From IMG/VR virus record IMGVR_UViG_3300009160_000047, positions 1 through 60,102 of that record: 60,102 nt of DNA; one strand, written 5' to 3'. Origin of the DNA: a virus. Below are positions 24,177 through 52,793 of this stretch, piece by piece. Below the pieces are notes generated by a model. It was not told the origin of the DNA. It was given only the letters and a program-made list of their open reading frames with translations, and made no database searches. How positions within the stretch are numbered: the first letter of the stretch is position 1; each line of letters opens with the position of its first letter. The position numbers and the translations under genes are program-made.

Positions 24177-24388
24177 AACCATGGCACCAATATACTGAAG
24201 AGGGGATTGCCGGACTGGCTGCCGAAGCATTGAATGTAGCGGTCGCCCACATCCAAGACAGACTGGGTGTGGACACCGGCGACTTTGCCGGCTTGTACTT
24301 CTCAGGCACCCGAGAGGAAGCAATGGAGGCGGTACTCAAGCAGTACATAGAGCAAGAGATCCATTGGAATCAGGAGCTCACAACATGA
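24173..24388 (+). CDS. Small helical protein, unknown
   Basis: 71 residues (MKPWHQYTEEGIAGLAAEALNVAVAHIQDRLGVDTGDFAG...). Helical, acidic, with no recognised domain. Coupled on both sides by ATGA (24173 and 24385), so it is co-translated with the methyltransferase gene that follows. Confidence 0.55.
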   Translation: MKPWHQYTEEGIAGLAAEALNVAVAHIQDRLGVDTGDFAGLYFSGTREEAMEAVLKQYIEQEIHWNQELTT

Positions 24389-25005
24389 AGGTTCTAGTAG
24401 CCTGTGAATACTCAGGTGTGGTGCGTGATGCCTTTACCAAGGCCGGACACGATGCCACATCCTGCGATCTGCTGCCGTCTGAATCCCCACATGGAAAGCA
24501 TTTCCAAGGGGATGTGATGGAGATCCTGGAAAAAGATTGGGATCTTTTAATTGCCCATCCACCATGCACTTACCTGTGCGTGTCAGGCATTCATTGGAAC
24601 AATAAACGACCCGAGAGAGCAGCTCAAACCGAAGAGGCTTTGAAATTTGTGGAGGCTTTGCTCAATGCCGACATTCCAAAGATCTGTCTTGAGAATCCCA
24701 TCGGCGTGATATCCACCCGCATCCGCAAGCCCACCCAAATCATTCAGCCGTATCAATACGGACATGATGCGAGCAAGCAAACCTGTCTCTGGCTGAAAAA
24801 TTTACCACCCCTGCAGCCAACCCAGTTTGTTGAGCCACGCATTGTGACCACACCCAGTGGAAAAAAAGCCAATAGATGGGGCAACCAGTGCGACAACTAC
24901 GGCCATGACAGTCTGCCGCCTAGCGCAGATCGATGGAAGATTAGAAGTGCAACATACCAAGGCATTGCCGATGCCATGGTGAACCAATGGGGAGGCTTAG
25001 CATGA
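24385..25005 (+). CDS. Cytosine-C5 methyltransferase-like protein
   Basis: 206 residues starting MKVLVACEYSGVVRDAF at 24385; the longer frame is inside the previous gene. Residues 1-20 read as the SAM-binding motif (VACEYSG, AGHDATSCDLLPS). Residues 54-64 contain LLIAHPPCTYL with Cys61, the position of the catalytic PC motif, and ENPIGVI follows at about 105. The C-terminal half (HDASKQTCLWLKNLPPLQP) lacks a clear target-recognition domain, so specificity is unknown. It may protect phage DNA from restriction. Short family members of this type are common in phages. Confidence 0.75.
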   Translation: MKVLVACEYSGVVRDAFTKAGHDATSCDLLPSESPHGKHFQGDVMEILEKDWDLLIAHPPCTYLCVSGIHWNNKRPERAAQTEEALKFVEALLNADIPKICLENPIGVISTRIRKPTQIIQPYQYGHDASKQTCLWLKNLPPLQPTQFVEPRIVTTPSGKKANRWGNQCDNYGHDSLPPSADRWKIRSATYQGIADAMVNQWGGLA

Positions 25006-28741: not shown

Positions 28742-29245
28742 TCACGCTACCCCTTTCAATAGTTCTTGCAGTTGTTTCAATTTCTGTGCACTGGTGGAGT
28801 TCTCTTGGATCTCTGCCTCGATCTCAAGTGCCACGTTCTCTAGCTCTGTGGCCATCGCCTTCATCTGTGCAGCCAACCCGTTGGCTTTCTCTGAAAGGCT
28901 GATCAATCTGTCCAAGTTGGATTGCTTGATCTGAGTTACTGGTTTGCTTGTAGCCATGGTTTTTTCCTTTGTTTCTTCTATAAATTTGTCGAATGTTGTT
29001 GTCTCTTTTACTTCTATGCGGATAAAAGATCCGCGCTCAGGCTCTTGGATAAGGCCTTGTCGTTTCAATGTGTCCAAGCAACCAATGATTGCCTTGGAGT
29101 CCCGCATGCTGTAGCCCAGTCTGCTTATCTCTGCAATGATCTGAGTAGAAGTCCATGCCTCAGATACAGGCACTGCTTCGTAGACCTTCTTGACTGGCGC
29201 ATTCAAGACGTTAAACATCTGCTTAAACCTAGTCTGACTTATCAT
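28742..29245 (-). CDS. Winged-helix-like protein with coiled-coil tail
   Basis: 167 residues. An N-terminal wHTH-like part (MISQTRFKQMFNVLNAPVKKVYEAV, TSTQIIAEISRLGYSMRDSKAIIGCLDTLKRQGLI, wing RGSFIRIEV) leads to a long coiled coil (LDRLISLSEKANGLAAQMKAMATELENVALEIEAEIQ). It may be a small DNA-binding regulator. It overlaps the glycosyltransferase stop by 17 bases, the last gene of the minus accessory operon. Confidence 0.65.
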   Translation of the reverse strand: MISQTRFKQMFNVLNAPVKKVYEAVPVSEAWTSTQIIAEISRLGYSMRDSKAIIGCLDTLKRQGLIQEPERGSFIRIEVKETTTFDKFIEETKEKTMATSKPVTQIKQSNLDRLISLSEKANGLAAQMKAMATELENVALEIEAEIQENSTSAQKLKQLQELLKGVA

Positions 29246-30866
29246 TTTTCATCTCCTTTATTTCTAAGTCTTGTTCAGCTCTTTCAAGTAAATATTTCCT
29301 CCAATCTTCGTGTTCTAAAACTTTTTGTATTTGTTCTCGGCTCCACAGGAACATGTGCCTATCCTCAAAACCATCTAAGACTTTGAACAACGTATCTTCA
29401 GGGAAGTTATATGGACTGGCGAATAAATCCATGTACCTGAACGAACCTGCTGAAATATCGTGATTCTCAAATGGCTTCTCTGGACGCTTCATGTGGCTAG
29501 TTGTAAACAGGTACTTGATACCTGACTCCACAAAGTTGGTAAGCACCTTGTAGGTTTCCACGTAGGGCATATGGAACAGAAAATCCCGACACAACATCAG
29601 GTCTGCCATGGGGTACTTGTCCTCTACCAAATTGGTATAGACAAACTTCATCTTTGGATTGTCTTTGTACTTCTCTTTAAGCTCTTCTATTAGAGCTTGC
29701 ACAATATCAGCACCAACATAATCTATGTCGGACTGCTCCAAGACCTTGGCCATCCAGTTCAGGTCGCCGCATGGCGCATCGAATACAGACTTAATCTCAA
29801 ACTGCTCGAACAACTTGGGCAATTCCTGACGCAATCGTTCTGTATGTTTCAGCGTAGATGACGGCCCACTAACTGTTTCACCAGAGCCCCAACCCTTCTT
29901 CTCAAAGATCTTTGTGAACTTTTCTTCCATGGTCTGCTGCTTATCCCAGTACAACCTTGATGCCCGACCCTTGGCTTTCTTATTAAAGTAGTCCACACCT
30001 GAGAAATCAATGTAGTCCTGAACAGATCTGACTGATCCCAACCCATAGATACCCATGTCTTTGCCATGGATCAAAGCCTCCAGTCTGTCTGTCGCACGTT
30101 GCTGCATGGTTGCCCAGTGCTCAGCACGTTTTGTAGTGACTTCCTTATCCCAATGTCTAGGACGTTCGCCGCCTTTTGATTTGGCATAAAGATGGTAGAT
30201 GGGCATGTCAGGCACATGGAAAATATCCCAACCATGCGTATACGCGCGCAACGCTATAGCTTGCTCTTCGCCATTGAAGTACATATAAGGATCGTATGGA
30301 ATCTCATATACAAACTTGCCTAGCGTGAACAGGCAACCTGCGCCTACGTGAACTCCAGGAATGATGTCGGTTGTGTCTACTGGAGAAGCAACAAACTTCA
30401 GCTTGGAATTCTTTGGATCAAAATCATCCGCAATAATGTGAACCGATGTGCCACGGAAGATGTGCTTGGTAACAATTCCATTCTCACGCTCGTATGAGTT
30501 TGGGTAACTGGACACAATGAACTTCGGGCTAATCTCGGCGCACTTCTCAGCCGCTTTGATGAATCTCTCATCCCAGTCCTGCTCAAATATCATGTGTGCA
30601 TCGATCTGGAAAAACCAATCCTCATCGTTGTACATGGACATGCAGACTGATCTCGCCCAACAGGCACCACGGGATTCGTGTGGGTTAACACCAAGGTAGC
30701 GCACATTCTTATGGTCAGGCGTGATCTTGATGCGCTTACCCAGTTCGCTCTGCTCCACCACTCCAAAGAATAAATCGTTTGGATATTTGGATTTCTTGAT
30801 GGCATCATTTATTGTGTGCCCCAATAGCACATCAGAGTAGGAGGCAATGCTTACAAAGATGCTCAT
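29229..30866 (-). CDS. GT60-like glycosyltransferase fused to SAM methyltransferase
   Basis: 545 residues. The N-terminal part (1-260) begins MSIFVSIASYSDVLLGHTINDA and holds ESRGACWARSVCMSMYNDEDWFFQIDAHM (DAH at 89-91) and GVHVGAGCLF, then PYDPYMYFNGEEQAIALRAYTHGWDIF: the pattern of GlcNAc-type (GT60) glycosyltransferases. The C-terminal part (340-500) is a Rossmann SAM methyltransferase with VFDAPCGDLNWM (361-372) and GADIV. The fusion joins sugar transfer and methylation. The acceptor is unknown; phage DNA, virion or host glycan are all possible. No nucleotide-sugar gene lies nearby. Confidence 0.75.
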   Translation of the reverse strand: MSIFVSIASYSDVLLGHTINDAIKKSKYPNDLFFGVVEQSELGKRIKITPDHKNVRYLGVNPHESRGACWARSVCMSMYNDEDWFFQIDAHMIFEQDWDERFIKAAEKCAEISPKFIVSSYPNSYERENGIVTKHIFRGTSVHIIADDFDPKNSKLKFVASPVDTTDIIPGVHVGAGCLFTLGKFVYEIPYDPYMYFNGEEQAIALRAYTHGWDIFHVPDMPIYHLYAKSKGGERPRHWDKEVTTKRAEHWATMQQRATDRLEALIHGKDMGIYGLGSVRSVQDYIDFSGVDYFNKKAKGRASRLYWDKQQTMEEKFTKIFEKKGWGSGETVSGPSSTLKHTERLRQELPKLFEQFEIKSVFDAPCGDLNWMAKVLEQSDIDYVGADIVQALIEELKEKYKDNPKMKFVYTNLVEDKYPMADLMLCRDFLFHMPYVETYKVLTNFVESGIKYLFTTSHMKRPEKPFENHDISAGSFRYMDLFASPYNFPEDTLFKVLDGFEDRHMFLWSREQIQKVLEHEDWRKYLLERAEQDLEIKEMKNDKSD

Positions 30867-31625: not shown

Positions 31626-31948
31626 GTGTTCATCTCCAGTGTGTTAATTTGGTCAATAATCCATTGGCAATCTTTGCGCAAGCCTTCAAAGAGCGGCGTG
31701 TCTTCCTTCTGAATCTTGCCCTGTGCGTTGTACATTTCAAAAAGATCATCGTAAACGTCTTTAAGTTTGATGTGAACCTTGATAGATACCTCCGTCTCTA
31801 GATCCCAAATCACTTTCAAAGTCTCAATAACCTCTGAGAAATCCTCTTCGGATTGGTTCGATGCGTAGAAATAAAACTTAAAGTTTCCTTCCGAGTCAAT
31901 TACTCCTGTTTGAGGTATCTCATCTATCTCAAATTCAATTGGCTTCAT
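31622..31948 (-). CDS. Acidic protein, unknown
   Basis: 108 residues (MKPIEFEIDEIPQTGVIDSEGNFKFYFYASNQSEEDFSEVIETLKVIWDLE...), acidic with a strand-then-helix layout. Overlaps the next gene start by ATGA. It belongs to the short accessory genes of the minus operon; no family recognised. Confidence 0.58.
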   Translation of the reverse strand: MKPIEFEIDEIPQTGVIDSEGNFKFYFYASNQSEEDFSEVIETLKVIWDLETEVSIKVHIKLKDVYDDLFEMYNAQGKIQKEDTPLFEGLRKDCQWIIDQINTLEMNT

Positions 31949-32187
31949 GTATTTTTCTCCTTGAGTTTGGCTTCCGCCCTGTATACGACATCTTCCATTG
32001 ACTTTGCTTCGCCCAAAATTGTTTTAACTTCTGCGCCTGTCAAGTCCCTCCATTCACGCTGCTCATATAGCGGCACCTCTTTCCACCAACCACCCTCATG
32101 GTTTGGCCAGTCCTGTTTGGTATGTGTTATCACTGGATGTTTTTCATCACCATCACATATATACAGCCATGCTTTTGGTTCGTTCAT
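31945..32187 (-). CDS. Small protein, conserved opening, unknown
   Basis: 80 residues: MNEPKAWLYICDGDEKHPVITHTKQDWPNHEGGWWKEVPLYE, a type of opening common in short phage proteins. The C-terminus AEAKLKEKNT matches that of 32363-32518, including the GGAG and ATACATG that follow. Confidence 0.6.
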   Translation of the reverse strand: MNEPKAWLYICDGDEKHPVITHTKQDWPNHEGGWWKEVPLYEQREWRDLTGAEVKTILGEAKSMEDVVYRAEAKLKEKNT

Positions 32188-32366
32188 GGCTTCTCCTTAA
32201 AGTCATCGATAGCCGTACAGCCACGCTCCATACAGGCGGGCTCAAGGTCAGGTATGTGCTTGTCAATTACGTCAGCTATCTTGGTACGCAACAGGGCACT
32301 CGCGTGAAACAGCACGGCGATATTCATCAGCTCCTCAACAAGCGGTTTTGATTGTGAGTATTTCAT
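32184..32366 (-). CDS. Small helical protein, unknown
   Basis: 60 residues (MKYSQSKPLVEELMNIAVLFHASALLRTKIADVIDKHIPDLEPACMERGC...), coupled by ATGA on both sides. Helical; unknown function. Confidence 0.52.
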   Translation of the reverse strand: MKYSQSKPLVEELMNIAVLFHASALLRTKIADVIDKHIPDLEPACMERGCTAIDDFKEKP

Positions 32367-32518
32367 GTATTTTTCTCCTTTAGTTTTGCTTCGATGGCTC
32401 TATAAAAATGACCCCAACCATCCATTGACTCAATCCACTGTTGCCACAACTGGTGCTGCTCCTCCTCTGTCAGGCCTCTCCAAGGGCGCACGTAGTCTTG
32501 AATGTCATCGTCATCCAT
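32363..32518 (-). CDS. Small Trp-rich protein, unknown
   Basis: A 51-residue frame (MDDDDIQDYVRPWRGLTEEEQHQLWQQW...). It ends RAIEAKLKEKNT, nearly identical to the end of 31945-32187. Each of these two gene ends also serves as the ribosome site for the next gene, which suggests duplicated gene-end cassettes. Confidence 0.55.
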   Translation of the reverse strand: MDDDDIQDYVRPWRGLTEEEQHQLWQQWIESMDGWGHFYRAIEAKLKEKNT

Positions 32519-33833: not shown

Positions 33834-33854
33834 AGTGGACTTTCTTCATGGTTA

Positions 33855-34154
33855 TCAGGGTTGAACTTGGGCACTTTTGTACCCTTGTCTTTTGGATTTG
33901 GAAATGGTGGAAACGGCCATGTCATCTACGTTCTCCGGTCTAGGACAATCTTCTGGCGGCACAACCACGCACCACACAGCTGCATACTGTTTTCTCGGAA
34001 CAGCTTCCCATCTATCAATGTAGGCATCAGGCATAGCGCGTATGATCTTTTTAATGTTCGCCTTATCACGCTTCACCGCCCACACGATCTGCTCTAACGT
34101 CATTCCATCACTGTTCGTTCTGAGTAATGCTCTAATCTCTTGCGTACAGTTCAT
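33855..34154 (-). CDS. Winged-helix-like small protein
   Basis: 99 residues. The N-terminus (MNCTQEIRALLRTNSDGMTLEQIVWAVKRDKANIKKIIRAMPDAYIDRWEA) reads as a helix-turn-helix with wing (KQYAAVWCVV). A DNA-binding regulator is possible but unproven. Second gene of the minus accessory operon. Confidence 0.62.
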   Translation of the reverse strand: MNCTQEIRALLRTNSDGMTLEQIVWAVKRDKANIKKIIRAMPDAYIDRWEAVPRKQYAAVWCVVVPPEDCPRPENVDDMAVSTISKSKRQGYKSAQVQP

Positions 34155-35169: not shown

Positions 35170-35973
35170 TTAGTCCCCGCAAAAGCAGGCAATACCCTCC
35201 TCAGTGGAGGCAAACATATCCATTTGCTCCGTGGCAAATTTCATCATCTGCGAATAGCTAGGGCGATCACTACGGAATGTGCCGCCTATGGCATGCTCCT
35301 GCTTTGCCCACCACAGGGCTCGATCTGGGTTATCCCGAATGATGCTAAGCACTTGGTTGGGGCCCTTAAGAAAGCACAGGTCACAGTTGCCAAGGTTGGT
35401 AACACCAGACTGGAACTTAAGCCCCAGGTCAAATGAGTTGGCCTTCCAAAATTCTTGTACATCGAGCTGGCTAAAGTTTGCATCAATCAAGGGGGTGCGG
35501 TTACCCTGCCTAAGCTTGGCAGCTCTGCGCTTTTCATCCGCCCTGATCCCAAGCATCTGCTCAAACTCTTCTACGCCCCTAGACAACATGTATTTCTGGA
35601 TGGGAATAACCTTTAGATCAGACGTACAAAAGCGCGCAACAGGGTTGGGCAGGTAGCTACGCTTGTTAATCAGGGCTGAGAACGGCTCACCATCCCGACT
35701 GGCTGTCTCGTAGTCCACCTCTTTCCAGCGATCCTTGGTCAGTTCAGCCGGCTGATATTCAAGCCAATGGATCTTGACGTTCCAGGCCTTTGCGCAATCA
35801 TTAACGAACTTAAGTGTGGCCTCATCCTCCTTACCAGTGTTGGCAAAGCAAACAATAGCTTCCTCGGGCAAGCTCATGTCGTGAGCCTCCAAGACCTTAT
35901 AAAGCATGAAGGCGGAGGTACGGCCACCCGAAAAGGATATGACCGTGGGCTCATCTATGTGGAAGGGATTCAT
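35170..35973 (-). CDS. PAPS-reductase/adenine nucleotide hydrolase-like protein
   Basis: 267 residues. The PP-loop TVISFSGGRTSAFML (about 10-24) is typical of PAPS reductase-type and DndC-like enzymes. CDLC (about residues 198-201) and ACFCGD at the C-terminus could bind a metal or a cluster. These enzymes transfer or activate sulfur or adenylyl groups; DndC-type members act in DNA phosphorothioation, but no DndD/E or cysteine desulfurase genes are present, so a true phosphorothioate system is not supported. It follows the VRR-NUC gene across a terminator (35986-36011). Confidence 0.75.
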   Translation of the reverse strand: MNPFHIDEPTVISFSGGRTSAFMLYKVLEAHDMSLPEEAIVCFANTGKEDEATLKFVNDCAKAWNVKIHWLEYQPAELTKDRWKEVDYETASRDGEPFSALINKRSYLPNPVARFCTSDLKVIPIQKYMLSRGVEEFEQMLGIRADEKRRAAKLRQGNRTPLIDANFSQLDVQEFWKANSFDLGLKFQSGVTNLGNCDLCFLKGPNQVLSIIRDNPDRALWWAKQEHAIGGTFRSDRPSYSQMMKFATEQMDMFASTEEGIACFCGD

Positions 35974-49896: not shown

Positions 49897-50324
49897 ATTA
49901 GTACCTCAACAAGGGTATTTCTGGGTTCAAAGTTATAGCGTTTCCAGAGGCGAACGATTGCATCACGTCCATACCCCTGTATTTTCGTTGCACCGCGCAG
50001 TTTTAACAAGGCTTTAAACTGGTCAAAAGTATCTTGACTAGAAATAAGTTTACCGCCAATAGCCGTCACAAATGCTACCCGATGCATGGGGTAGTTGATA
50101 AACGAGATTGTAGTAGCGCCCTGTATTTCGCCCTCTTCGCTTACTGCTACAACAAGCAGCCAAGCGCCATTAGTAAGAAAGCTTTGAATGTGATCAGCCG
50201 TGTAGTCATGGGCCCAATCAGGGAAGTCACCACCTTTTGTCATGGCTTCTTCAATGAACGGCTTTACCATAGGCCAAACTTGCTGGACATAATTAGTTTC
50301 AACATGGCGAATTTTTAAGCTCAT
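49893..50324 (-). CDS. GNAT-like protein
   Basis: 143 residues (MSLKIRHVETNYVQQVWPMVKPFIEEAMTKGGDFPDW...). A GNAT-like alternation (WLLVVAVSEEGEIQGATTISFIN, VAFVTAIGG, IQGYGRDAIVRLWKRYNF) is visible. The position, coupled to the Gln-rich gene by ATGA, recalls internal acetyltransferase-like proteins of podophages. The acetyl-CoA loop is not clear, so activity is uncertain. Confidence 0.65.
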   Translation of the reverse strand: MSLKIRHVETNYVQQVWPMVKPFIEEAMTKGGDFPDWAHDYTADHIQSFLTNGAWLLVVAVSEEGEIQGATTISFINYPMHRVAFVTAIGGKLISSQDTFDQFKALLKLRGATKIQGYGRDAIVRLWKRYNFEPRNTLVEVLI

Positions 50325-51769
50325 TTAGGCAGTTTCTTAATTAGGTCAAAAATACCGTTAGACATGGCAAGTTGTTTTTGCTGCACTGTTTGCGGTGCTT
50401 GCGCCTTTTGTGGCTGCTGTACATCGGTAAAGCTAAACGGAGTTTGTATAGGTGGATTTTTACCGTACACACTAAAAGGTGTATTTAGTCCTGTTGTGCG
50501 TCCGTAGTACGCATTCTCCAAATCTGTTGGTGTTAATCCAACCGCACGCATTTCTCTTAGCACTGCATTCATATCCGCGCCTTTTGGCGAACCATCAGGA
50601 TATGTTTGCGCCATTTGCCTATCAGCCATGTCACGCAAGTTTTGATTAAGTGCATCAATACCTTGGCGACTTGAAGCATAGTTGTAACCGGCAGATGTAG
50701 GAACATCTTGTCCGTAATTACTTACATTGAACATTGTCAATGGGTTAGCGTAGTTCTGATACTGCGAACGATATATACCTGTCCTAGGAACTGGCGTGCT
50801 TGTAGGCGGCGGCGTGCTTGTAGGGGGCGGTGTACGCCGTATAGTAATCGTAGGACGTGGAGTAAACGTAGGAGGATCAGTCCACCATGTTGGCGGCTCT
50901 TCCGTAGGTGGCTCCGTTGGGGGTTCTTCGGTTGGAGGATCAGTTGGCGGCTCTTCAGACCACGTATCGGTTGGCGGGTCAGTTGGAGGTTCTCCAGTCC
51001 TTGTTTCAGTTTCAGTTTCAGTCTCAGTCTCAGTTTCAGTTTCAGTTTCGGTACTAGTGTCAGTTGGATCAGTCCAAGGCGGGTCAGTAAATGGAGTAAA
51101 ACTAAATGTATCAGTTACTACATCTGTTTGTGTTGGACGTTCAGCAGTTATGATAATTTCAGAAACAAATTCAGATTCAGTTTCGGTTTCCCAGTCAGTT
51201 ATCAGAATGTTCTGAGTACTAATTAAATTGGTACCCCAATCAACAGGCGTTGCTGATGGACGCTCTCCAGTAATAATTATTTCAGAAATATCATCAGTAT
51301 TGCCTTCAGTCGTCCAATCTGTTATTAGGATGTTCTCAGTGCTTACTAAATCGTTGCCCCAGTCAAAAGTAACTTCTGGAGGGCGGTCTGTCGTAATAAT
51401 AATTTCAGGTATGTTGTCGTCATCACCACCCCGCCAGTCGCCCCCCGGGTCATCGCCCCAGCCGCCGCCACCCTCTAATGAAATAGATGAAAAATCATCG
51501 TCACCCATTTCAAACTGAGGCAATCCTGTAATGGGATTAATTGTTCCTGATCCACCCATGCGTTTAAGCATGCGTGCTTCTTGCGGATTAATGTGAGCAA
51601 GTATGGTATCGCCATTTTGCCCAAACCTAGCTAAGTCTCTTATCTCGCCTTTATCAAACCCAGTGATGCGGCCACCAGTGCCGTACCTAACTACAGGTTC
51701 GCCAGAGCCTAAATTGGTTTCGTCCTGACTCTCAAGGGTTTGCCCGAATGCTATCCCGCCATTTGCCAT
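50321..51769 (-). CDS. Repeat-rich virion protein (41-residue repeats, Thr-Glu and Pro-Thr tracts)
   Basis: 482 residues from the ATG at 51769 (AAGGAG 8 bases upstream; the longer frame begins inside the previous gene). The N-terminus has RITGFDKGEIRDLARFGQNGDTILAHINPQEARMLKRMGGSGTINPITGLPQFE, a motif seen in phage internal proteins. A 41-residue unit (EIII, T, DRP, DWG, NIL, ITDW) occurs twice plus a partial third. A TETETE run and PPT/EEPPTDPPT tract (about 240-335) follow. The C-terminus is ordinary. Elongated or disordered virion part is inferred. Confidence 0.72.
   Translation of the reverse strand: MANGGIAFGQTLESQDETNLGSGEPVVRYGTGGRITGFDKGEIRDLARFGQNGDTILAHINPQEARMLKRMGGSGTINPITGLPQFEMGDDDFSSISLEGGGGWGDDPGGDWRGGDDDNIPEIIITTDRPPEVTFDWGNDLVSTENILITDWTTEGNTDDISEIIITGERPSATPVDWGTNLISTQNILITDWETETESEFVSEIIITAERPTQTDVVTDTFSFTPFTDPPWTDPTDTSTETETETETETETETETRTGEPPTDPPTDTWSEEPPTDPPTEEPPTEPPTEEPPTWWTDPPTFTPRPTITIRRTPPPTSTPPPTSTPVPRTGIYRSQYQNYANPLTMFNVSNYGQDVPTSAGYNYASSRQGIDALNQNLRDMADRQMAQTYPDGSPKGADMNAVLREMRAVGLTPTDLENAYYGRTTGLNTPFSVYGKNPPIQTPFSFTDVQQPQKAQAPQTVQQKQLAMSNGIFDLIKKLPK
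51001..51055 (-). repeat. Hexamer microsatellite-like tract
   Basis: About eight near-identical hexamers (tttcag/tctcag) in the 482-residue protein gene encode a Thr-Glu run. Such a tract is prone to slippage, though hexamer changes stay in frame. Confidence 0.7.
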
Positions 51770-51779
51770 GCTATTCTCC

Positions 51780-52793
51780 TTATGCGGGTAAATACTTACG
51801 TGGCTGGATTTGTCGGCCTTGCTTTGAATTGCCAGTACGGGCATTGCGTACTTTGTTCATCATGGAATAAAGCTGCTTAGCACCCGCATCAGTCGAGCCA
51901 TTACCCAAATGAGAAACAACATCGGCTGGCTCAACGAATTCTCCATCAGCTAAACGTGCCGGTTGCTTACCACCAATGGTAGCGGGAATGTCGTCAGACA
52001 TGCCATCGCCAGGACCTTTAAGCATGCGGCCACCATCAGAGTAGCTACCCAAACCTGCAATACCGCCGCCGCTTGCGTAGCTGTATGGCTGATATGCGCC
52101 AGGATCAAATCTATATTGGCTAAGCGCTCCGCTGTACGGCTTCTTTTTAGGCATGCCGCCACGCAACTGATCGGACACCATACCAATACCAGCAATTCCA
52201 GCACCGCCAGCAAGAAGTTGTTGCTTAGGAGTCAAGCTATTAAACCACTCCTTGGCACTACCCATCATGCTTGGACTACCTTTTGCTGCTGCTTGAGACA
52301 TAGCACCAGACGGCGCGCTAAGACCCATTTGACTTGTAGCTGGGCCACCAGCCACCTCAAATCCAGGCATTGTTCCAGCTTTAGCTAATCCGGAAATACC
52401 AGTAGACGCAGAAGGTGCCGCTGAAGAAATAGAGTAATCCACTGGACCCATGTACCCAGGAATCGTGCTAGCACTAAGACCAGGCGTTGCAGAACCAGCA
52501 GTAGCCGCTAAACTTTGAGTACCCGCAGAAGTGGCCGCAGGGGCCGCTCCAGGCATGGCGCCACTAGACGCAGAGCCGGCACTACCAAACATGGCGCCGC
52601 CGGCACCACCCATCAGGCCGCCAATTAAAGCGCCCTGTAATGGGTCTTTGCCTTGTAAAATTGACGAACCACCACCCACAGCAGCGCCGGTCATCATGGC
52701 CTCTAACAGAGCCGCCTCGCCAACACCCCCACCAATGTAGAGATTACGTGTGCCATCACGTCTGTAGCCGTTGAATTTATTGGGGATAAGCAT
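51780..52793 (-). CDS. Ala/Gly-rich virion protein with KGPGDGMSDDIPATIGG motif
   Basis: 337 residues. The C-terminal 100 hold LKGPGDGMSDDIPATIGGKQPARLADGEFV and PADVVSHLGNGSTDAGAKQLYSMMNKVRNARTG, a motif frequent in phage internal or tail-associated proteins. The first 230 are Ala/Gly/Ser-rich with hydrophobic stretches (ALIGGLMGGAGGAMFGSAG) that could cross a membrane during entry. It probably belongs to the ejection set. Confidence 0.72.
   Translation of the reverse strand: MLIPNKFNGYRRDGTRNLYIGGGVGEAALLEAMMTGAAVGGGSSILQGKDPLQGALIGGLMGGAGGAMFGSAGSASSGAMPGAAPAATSAGTQSLAATAGSATPGLSASTIPGYMGPVDYSISSAAPSASTGISGLAKAGTMPGFEVAGGPATSQMGLSAPSGAMSQAAAKGSPSMMGSAKEWFNSLTPKQQLLAGGAGIAGIGMVSDQLRGGMPKKKPYSGALSQYRFDPGAYQPYSYASGGGIAGLGSYSDGGRMLKGPGDGMSDDIPATIGGKQPARLADGEFVEPADVVSHLGNGSTDAGAKQLYSMMNKVRNARTGNSKQGRQIQPRKYLPA

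Follow-up and report, generated by a model that had tools for sequence, protein, structure and literature searches.

A phage-encoded GT60 glycosyltransferase fused to a methyltransferase, and its possible role in the glycosylation of virion proteins

The genome of a freshwater-type phage contains a gene in which a sugar transferase and a methyltransferase are joined in a single protein, and this raises the question of what such a protein modifies. The window, meaning the whole stretch of DNA analysed here, is a virus contig of 60,102 bases; its terminase, portal, major head, lysozyme and DNA-ejection-type genes identify it as a tailed phage. The fusion gene stands among small unknown genes and DNA-metabolism genes. 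Its open reading frame has an ATG start and is intact, while the plus strand across the same positions is full of stops. The ORFs on either side overlap its start and its stop by a few bases each, so that it looks like a single gene in a closely packed transcript. Fused copies are present in other viral contigs, two of them identical (L001 and L002, 100%) and one at 93% identity with differing neighbour genes (L003), and a divergent copy of 537 aa is found in L012, with 49% identity in the glycosyltransferase and 60% in the methyltransferase. The ORF is therefore not an assembly artefact and is confirmed as a real gene. The features discussed below are located in Table 1.

Table 1. Positions in the window of the fusion gene, its domains and motifs, and related features.
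Feature	Position	Strand	Basis
GT60-methyltransferase fusion gene, 545 aa	29229..30866	-	ORF reading and profile searches
GT60 (PF11397) glycosyltransferase domain, residues 1-302; predicted GT-A fold nearest polypeptide GalNAc-transferases	29961..30866	-	
DxH motif D89-A90-H91, in place of the DxD in GT27/GT60; expected metal/UDP-sugar site	30594..30602	-	rule: PMC7185993
G199-E200-E201, invariant in relatives; candidate xED element of GT-A enzymes	30264..30272	-	
H225, invariant in relatives; candidate C-terminal metal-binding His of GT-A enzymes	30192..30194	-	
Class I SAM-dependent methyltransferase domain, residues 313-515; C-terminal helix continues to 545	29322..29930	-	
SAM-binding motif I, D363-APCGDLN-W371	29754..29780	-	18-sequence alignment
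Segment absent from the syntenic glycosyltransferase-only phage L006	29260..29973	-	DNA alignment
Portal/GroES-like gap; place of the GT60 gene in eight related-phage loci	12708..12887	.	
Candidate acceptor, 507-aa tail-module protein with Thr/Glu- and Pro/Thr-rich linker	50321..51844	-	
Densest mucin-like tract of the tail-module protein, residues 312-351, PPTEEPPTWWTDPPTFTPRPTITIRRTPPPTSTPPPTSTP	50792..50911	-	

The first half of the protein matches PF11397, 'Glycosyltransferase (GlcNAc)', over residues 52-292 (E 3.2e-53, with 182 bits where the curated cut-off is 21) and phrog_24687 (glycosyltransferase) over residues 2-299 (E 1.6e-41). The second half matches phrog_3382 (methyltransferase) over residues 318-493 (E 3.3e-43). 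An AlphaFold2 model built from a 39-sequence alignment also has two domains, with a mean pLDDT of 91. A preliminary description of this locus had divided the 545 residues between a glycosyltransferase part and a methyltransferase part, and both the division and the domain boundary agree with these results. The DAH motif that it placed at residues 89-91 is likewise present. D89 and H91 are invariant among the aligned relatives, as are E200, E201 and H225, and all five may have catalytic roles. Replacement of DxD by DxH is common to families GT27 and GT60 (PMC7185993). The best solved Foldseek match of the fusion model is GalNAc-T2. In VIA-align comparisons, residues 1-300 align with polypeptide GalNAc-transferases at Z 20-23, the nearest fold over the whole domain being that of GalNAc-T2 of GT27 (Z 23.3, 3.0 Å, 265 residues, 16% identity), and the best entries outside the GalNAc-T family reach Z 16.9 (chondroitin polymerase and others, all at or below 17). 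The predicted domain thus has a GT-A fold close to that of GT27. By every feature testable, these being profile, DxH motif and fold, the enzyme is a member of GT60. The polypeptide GalNAc-transferases of GT27 have a C-terminal lectin domain; the C-terminal half of the phage enzyme is instead a class I methyltransferase.

The GT60 enzyme of T. cruzi that has been characterised acts on mucin threonine, to which it adds alpha-GlcNAc; it requires Mn2+ and uses the peptide KPPTTTTTTTTKPP (PMC3769586). Its family has been named GT60, and a second member, Skp1 Gnt1, acts on a hydroxyproline of Skp1 (PMC6939170). The phage enzyme resembles both the T. cruzi UDP-GlcNAc:polypeptide alpha-GlcNAc-transferase and Skp1 Gnt1 in family profile and DxH motif, but it is encoded by a phage, is fused to a methyltransferase and has a tail protein as its likely, predicted acceptor. 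A Skp1-like pathway with a prolyl hydroxylase was rejected, as no 2OG-Fe(II) oxygenase was found among the scanned window proteins. Two neighbours in other GT60 loci do match 2OG-Fe(II) oxygenases.

The second domain combines a Rossmann-like fold with SAM motif I (invariant DxxCGD) and is a class I SAM-dependent methyltransferase. Residues D363, C366, G367, D368, N370 and W371 are invariant in 18 aligned sequences, and the domain modelled alone has a pLDDT of 90. Pfam Methyltransf_25 scores below its own cut-off on this half. The nearest solved folds are those of small-molecule and phosphobase methyltransferases, and the fold search among solved structures names no substrate. Relatives of the domain in cyanophage ACG-2014f stand among glycosyltransferases, nucleotide-sugar epimerases and an aminotransferase, and in mycobacteriophage Ariel a relative belongs to the capsid-glycosyltransferase cluster, where it adjoins three glycosyltransferases and a kinase. 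From this gene context the methyl acceptor may be a sugar, so that the earlier idea of one protein building a methylated sugar is supported as a possibility. The window also contains a DNA-methyltransferase-like gene (24364-25005, phrog_757) and a PAPS-reductase-like gene (35170-35973, phrog_424).

Relatives of the glycosyltransferase were found in at least 487 candidate viral contigs, 80 of which were read. In many viral contigs the glycosyltransferase is alone, including L005 and L006, where it occupies the syntenic slot of the window. In the DNA alignment of L006 to the window, the glycosyltransferase matches from 30784 to 29974, there is no counterpart for 29973-29260, and the match resumes at 29259. 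Compared with L005, the glycosyltransferase segment is 76% identical and the flanks are 89-94% identical, which makes it seem that the whole cassette has been exchanged. The preliminary description had held that separate genes in relatives would count against the fusion. This is half the case: in sister phages the same place holds a glycosyltransferase gene on its own, and elsewhere the fusion is intact down to about 50% identity.

The same fusion is found in nine of the 49 bacterial loci found, from Telmatospirillum, two Gallionellales (Gallionella), Sterolibacterium, Azonexus and four Magnetococcales. The bacterial proteins are encoded by single ORFs of 516-620 aa with the same domain order, but they have only about 30-35% identity to the phage protein and a separate fusion origin, and three are beside giant adhesin-like genes. 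A structure search also found (E 5e-24) the Catovirus CTV1 protein A0A1V0S9B9, annotated as a 'Glycosyltransferase and methyltransferase domain protein'. This protein of 781 aa, likened here by its annotation, has both domains by name, but is 20% identical and comes from a giant virus of a eukaryote. The earlier view of the fusion as unusual therefore needs qualifying; the domain pair also exists outside this phage, and the fusion by itself is no novelty.

On the methyltransferase tree, the domains of the phage fusions cluster with stand-alone methyltransferases from viral contigs (L013-L015), apart from those of the bacterial fusions, which make up a group of their own; a single clade of all fused methyltransferases is rejected (p-AU 0.001). 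The fused label requires three changes on the glycosyltransferase tree, and the fused phage glycosyltransferase domains as a single clade are rejected as well (p-AU 0.0001). The pair has therefore been joined at least twice, and within phages either a swap placed the methyltransferase on a second glycosyltransferase or it was lost on more than one occasion. The independent fusion in bacteria suggests that the two enzymatic steps belong together. Other bacterial GT60 domains are fused to different methyltransferase-like domains (L038, L053, L081), to PqqD (L058) or to radical SAM-SPASM (L060), partners that fit the modification of peptides or its decoration. At the Azonexus locus (L038:3393-7024) the end of a giant adhesin-like gene is followed by the GT60-methyltransferase fusion and then by a second GT60 with a different methyltransferase-like domain.

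The placement of GT60 genes in other phages indicates the type of target. In eight loci (L029, L083, L084, L087, L088, L094, L097 and L103), from phages with terminase, portal and head proteins homologous to those of the window, the gene is between the portal gene and a GroES-like/head-assembly gene. In L098-L101, L112 and L118 it is beside tail genes or long Pro/Thr-rich genes. These positions near portal and head or tail genes point to a virion protein as the target, and protein rather than DNA is the likely substrate. The preliminary description had left DNA protection and virion decoration as options, and of these the evidence favours the virion. In mycobacteriophages Che8, Corndog and Myrna, phage glycosyltransferases modify virion proteins (PMC12363180), which is akin to the role proposed here; these are different phages from that of the window and the likeness lies in virion glycosylation. 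In jumbo phage XacN1 (L030:5992-9709) the GT60 gene is directly followed by an annotated carbamoyltransferase gene, and in jumbo phage RAS14 (L032:4995-8812) by its positional equivalent, of similar length.

The best candidate for an acceptor in the window is the 507-aa tail-module protein, 20 kb from the fusion gene, in which the Pro/Thr-rich region extends upstream of the densest tract. The gene beside GT60 in L112 encodes Pro/Thr-rich repeats, TLPPVTISATTELPTLPPTLPP, and Pro/Thr-rich repeat genes are also beside GT60 in viral loci L099-L101, L105/L106, L113 and L118 and in bacterial loci L035, L039, L050, L057, L071, L081 and L082. In bacterial L035 and L039 the fusion gene is next to an adhesin-like gene that contains APTEAPTE repeats. 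A long tail-fibre-like protein with a short GPPGPSGPAGPSG run is found near the Magnetococcales fusions L043:3869-6832 and L065:4677-7592, that of L043 having a chaperone-like C-terminal end. Collagen-like acceptors were discarded, just one locus (L138) having a collagen-like run.

Over whole records, with GT60 status assigned by a PF11397 search, a Pro/Thr tract scoring at least 0.55 is present in 9 of 11 GT60-positive records, which represent about 8 lineages. It is present in 2 of 13 capsid-matched GT60-negative records (p 0.0018) and 2 of 10 tail-matched ones (p 0.007), or 4 of 23 when pooled, and these negative records may be fragments. The p value is 0.011 with one record per lineage and 0.046 in the most stringent form, when, in addition, only records with a tract not known beforehand are kept, the acceptor hypothesis having arisen from some of the loci tested. 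At a threshold of 0.5 the capsid-matched contrast is gone (p 0.16). Two GT60-positive records have no strong tract (G036, 0.45; G049, 0.40), and strong tracts occur in GT60-negative L161, L224, G009, G014, G056 and G064. Adjacency was also assessed. In viral loci at threshold 0.5 the tract is found in 8 of 148 GT60 neighbours versus 1 of 711 other ORFs (p 5e-6; 4e-6 and 2e-5 at 0.55 and 0.6), and in bacteria p is 0.01 at 0.6 and 0.2 at 0.5. After dereplication at 60%, with representatives picked by name order and some ending before the tract, no adjacency is significant (p 0.075 at best). The adjacency of tract genes to GT60 is therefore a hint.

Individual genomes allow a natural comparison. 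GT60-negative G054 encodes an orthologue of the window's tail protein whose linker consists of Gly/Glu/Asp repeats (GEGVGESVSGDF and Asp-rich) and is not of the Pro/Thr kind; at the same linker position GT60-positive G039 and G038 have PPTEEPPT and TPPPTLPPKTPPPTLPP. G040 (L091) shares only GT60 with the window proteins in the comparison, and it too has a TTPTTTVPPTTAPVTT protein. The tail-protein family alone was ruled out as a sign of GT60, since PF11397 was found in none of 32 records of that family, by a search that picks up 21 of 24 records in a set made up mainly of known positives.

The reading that we favour, although it falls a little short of an even chance, is that of a two-step glycan enzyme acting on a virion protein, with mucin-type O-glycosylation of the tail protein capped by methylation. 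Family, fold, conserved motifs, fusion history, the presence or absence of the domains at the locus and the co-occurrence with the tract are shown by the analysis; the donor, the acceptor and the chemistry we infer as follows. The metal-dependent GT-A domain would transfer a sugar to Thr or Ser of the Pro/Thr-rich, probably disordered linker, for which the tail-module protein is the best acceptor candidate in this phage. The sugar would most likely be an N-acetylhexosamine from the UDP-sugar pool of the host; no sugar-nucleotide gene was found in the window. The fused methyltransferase would then O-methylate the newly added sugar as a cap. This cap would be optional, given that in sister phages the locus has only the glycosyltransferase. 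A tail component would in this way acquire a mucin-like coat of methylated sugar, and the coat could make the linker stiffer, protect it or mask it. The 20-kb distance between the enzyme gene and the tail gene and the lack of a sugar-nucleotide gene count against this reading.

The enzyme could instead act in the same way on a head or other structural protein, not the Pro/Thr tail linker. This would fit the eight loci with GT60 between portal and head-assembly genes, several of which have nearby a head protein 85-88% identical to that of the window, as well as the relative of the methyltransferase that follows the major capsid gene in Ariel and the glycosylation of capsid and tail-tube proteins in mycobacteriophages (PMC12363180). 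Head proteins with 87-97% identity are, however, common among GT60-negative phages, with PF11397 in 0 of 20 larger records, and GT60 goes more closely with the Pro/Thr tract of tail proteins, making a head acceptor unlikely. Modification of the host, through a surface polysaccharide or a host protein, might alter phage receptors or exclude superinfection. Stand-alone relatives of the methyltransferase in sugar gene clusters, the giant adhesins by some fused bacterial versions and the position of the fusion gene outside the structural modules of the window are all consistent with such a role. It is nevertheless rather improbable, as the genes beside the fusion include no recognisable membrane or lipid-carrier partner, the fold and the characterised members of GT60 speak for polypeptide substrates, and GT60 lies inside the structural modules of related phages.

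The two halves may also be merely co-expressed, the glycosyltransferase modifying a protein and the methyltransferase acting on that protein or on some other small molecule. The locus can do without the methyltransferase, whose nearest solved folds belong to small-molecule and phosphobase enzymes, and PqqD and radical SAM-SPASM are among the other peptide-modifying domains to which GT60 is fused. Against this, relatives of the same methyltransferase stand in sugar-building clusters and there have been at least two independent fusions with GT60, so that co-expression alone has a low probability. Least probable is glycosylation and methylation of bases in phage DNA for the evasion of host restriction. 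Phage sugar transferases can act on DNA, and the carbamoyltransferase gene or its equivalent after GT60 in XacN1 and RAS14 might suit such a pathway. DNA glucosyltransferases of the T4 type have a GT-B fold, however, and residues 1-300 align end to end with GT-A enzymes, the fold being that of a polypeptide GalNAc-transferase. No hydroxymethylase, thymidylate-synthase-like or base-hypermodification genes were found among the scanned window proteins, and the phosphoribosyltransferase gene is not conserved with the fusion. That gene, several small ORFs upstream, had been taken as a possible partner, but it is absent from the whole record of about 40 kb of G039, which has a 93%-identical fusion, and from GT60-bearing G036 and G038, and it is rejected as a component of the system. 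No single partner stands out among the genes beside GT60 in phages, which are of mixed kinds.

Mucin-type O-glycosylation is regarded as a trait of eukaryotes. It can be proposed, tentatively and with less confidence than the reading favoured for this phage, that phages and bacteria use GT60 for mucin-type O-glycosylation of the Thr/Pro-rich linkers of tail proteins and giant adhesins, with a methyl cap added by a repeatedly fused methyltransferase. In the literature searched, with subscription papers mostly outside it, no paper was found that joins GT60 with bacteriophages, nor one that brings together at least five of the six subjects phage, O-glycosylation, mucin-like, threonine-rich, tail fiber and virion. 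A prokaryotic and phage GT60 tied to mucin-like tracts, with recurrent methyltransferase fusion, is as far as this literature goes new. If the proposal is true, hundreds of viral contigs, on the count of candidates given above, carry a virion-decoration system with an acceptor that can often be predicted from the phage's own genome, and a methylated sugar is the specific chemical signature to be expected from the fused methyltransferase.

Some minor sequence features accompany these loci. GT60 is fused to a PqqD-type peptide-recognition domain in a Halieaceae locus (L058:7986-9227) and to a radical SAM-SPASM domain in a deltaproteobacterial one (L060:7995-9863), and glycosylated RiPP-like peptides are possible products of both. 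The 30-base word GAAGCCAAACTCAAGGAGAAAAATACATGA is present on the minus strand of the window at 31945-31974 and 32362-32392, where it ends two different small ORFs, and it recurs in L002, L004, L005, L007, L008, L012 and L105. It holds a Shine-Dalgarno-like AAGGAG and the start of the next gene, and it may act as a boundary that allows small genes to be shuffled. The ORF at 33855-34154 has a C-terminal tail ending in SKRQGYKSAQVQP (window 33843-33936) that is common at the DNA level to the ends of glycosyltransferase-only genes, those of L004 and L007 matching at 78-82% over 94 bases.
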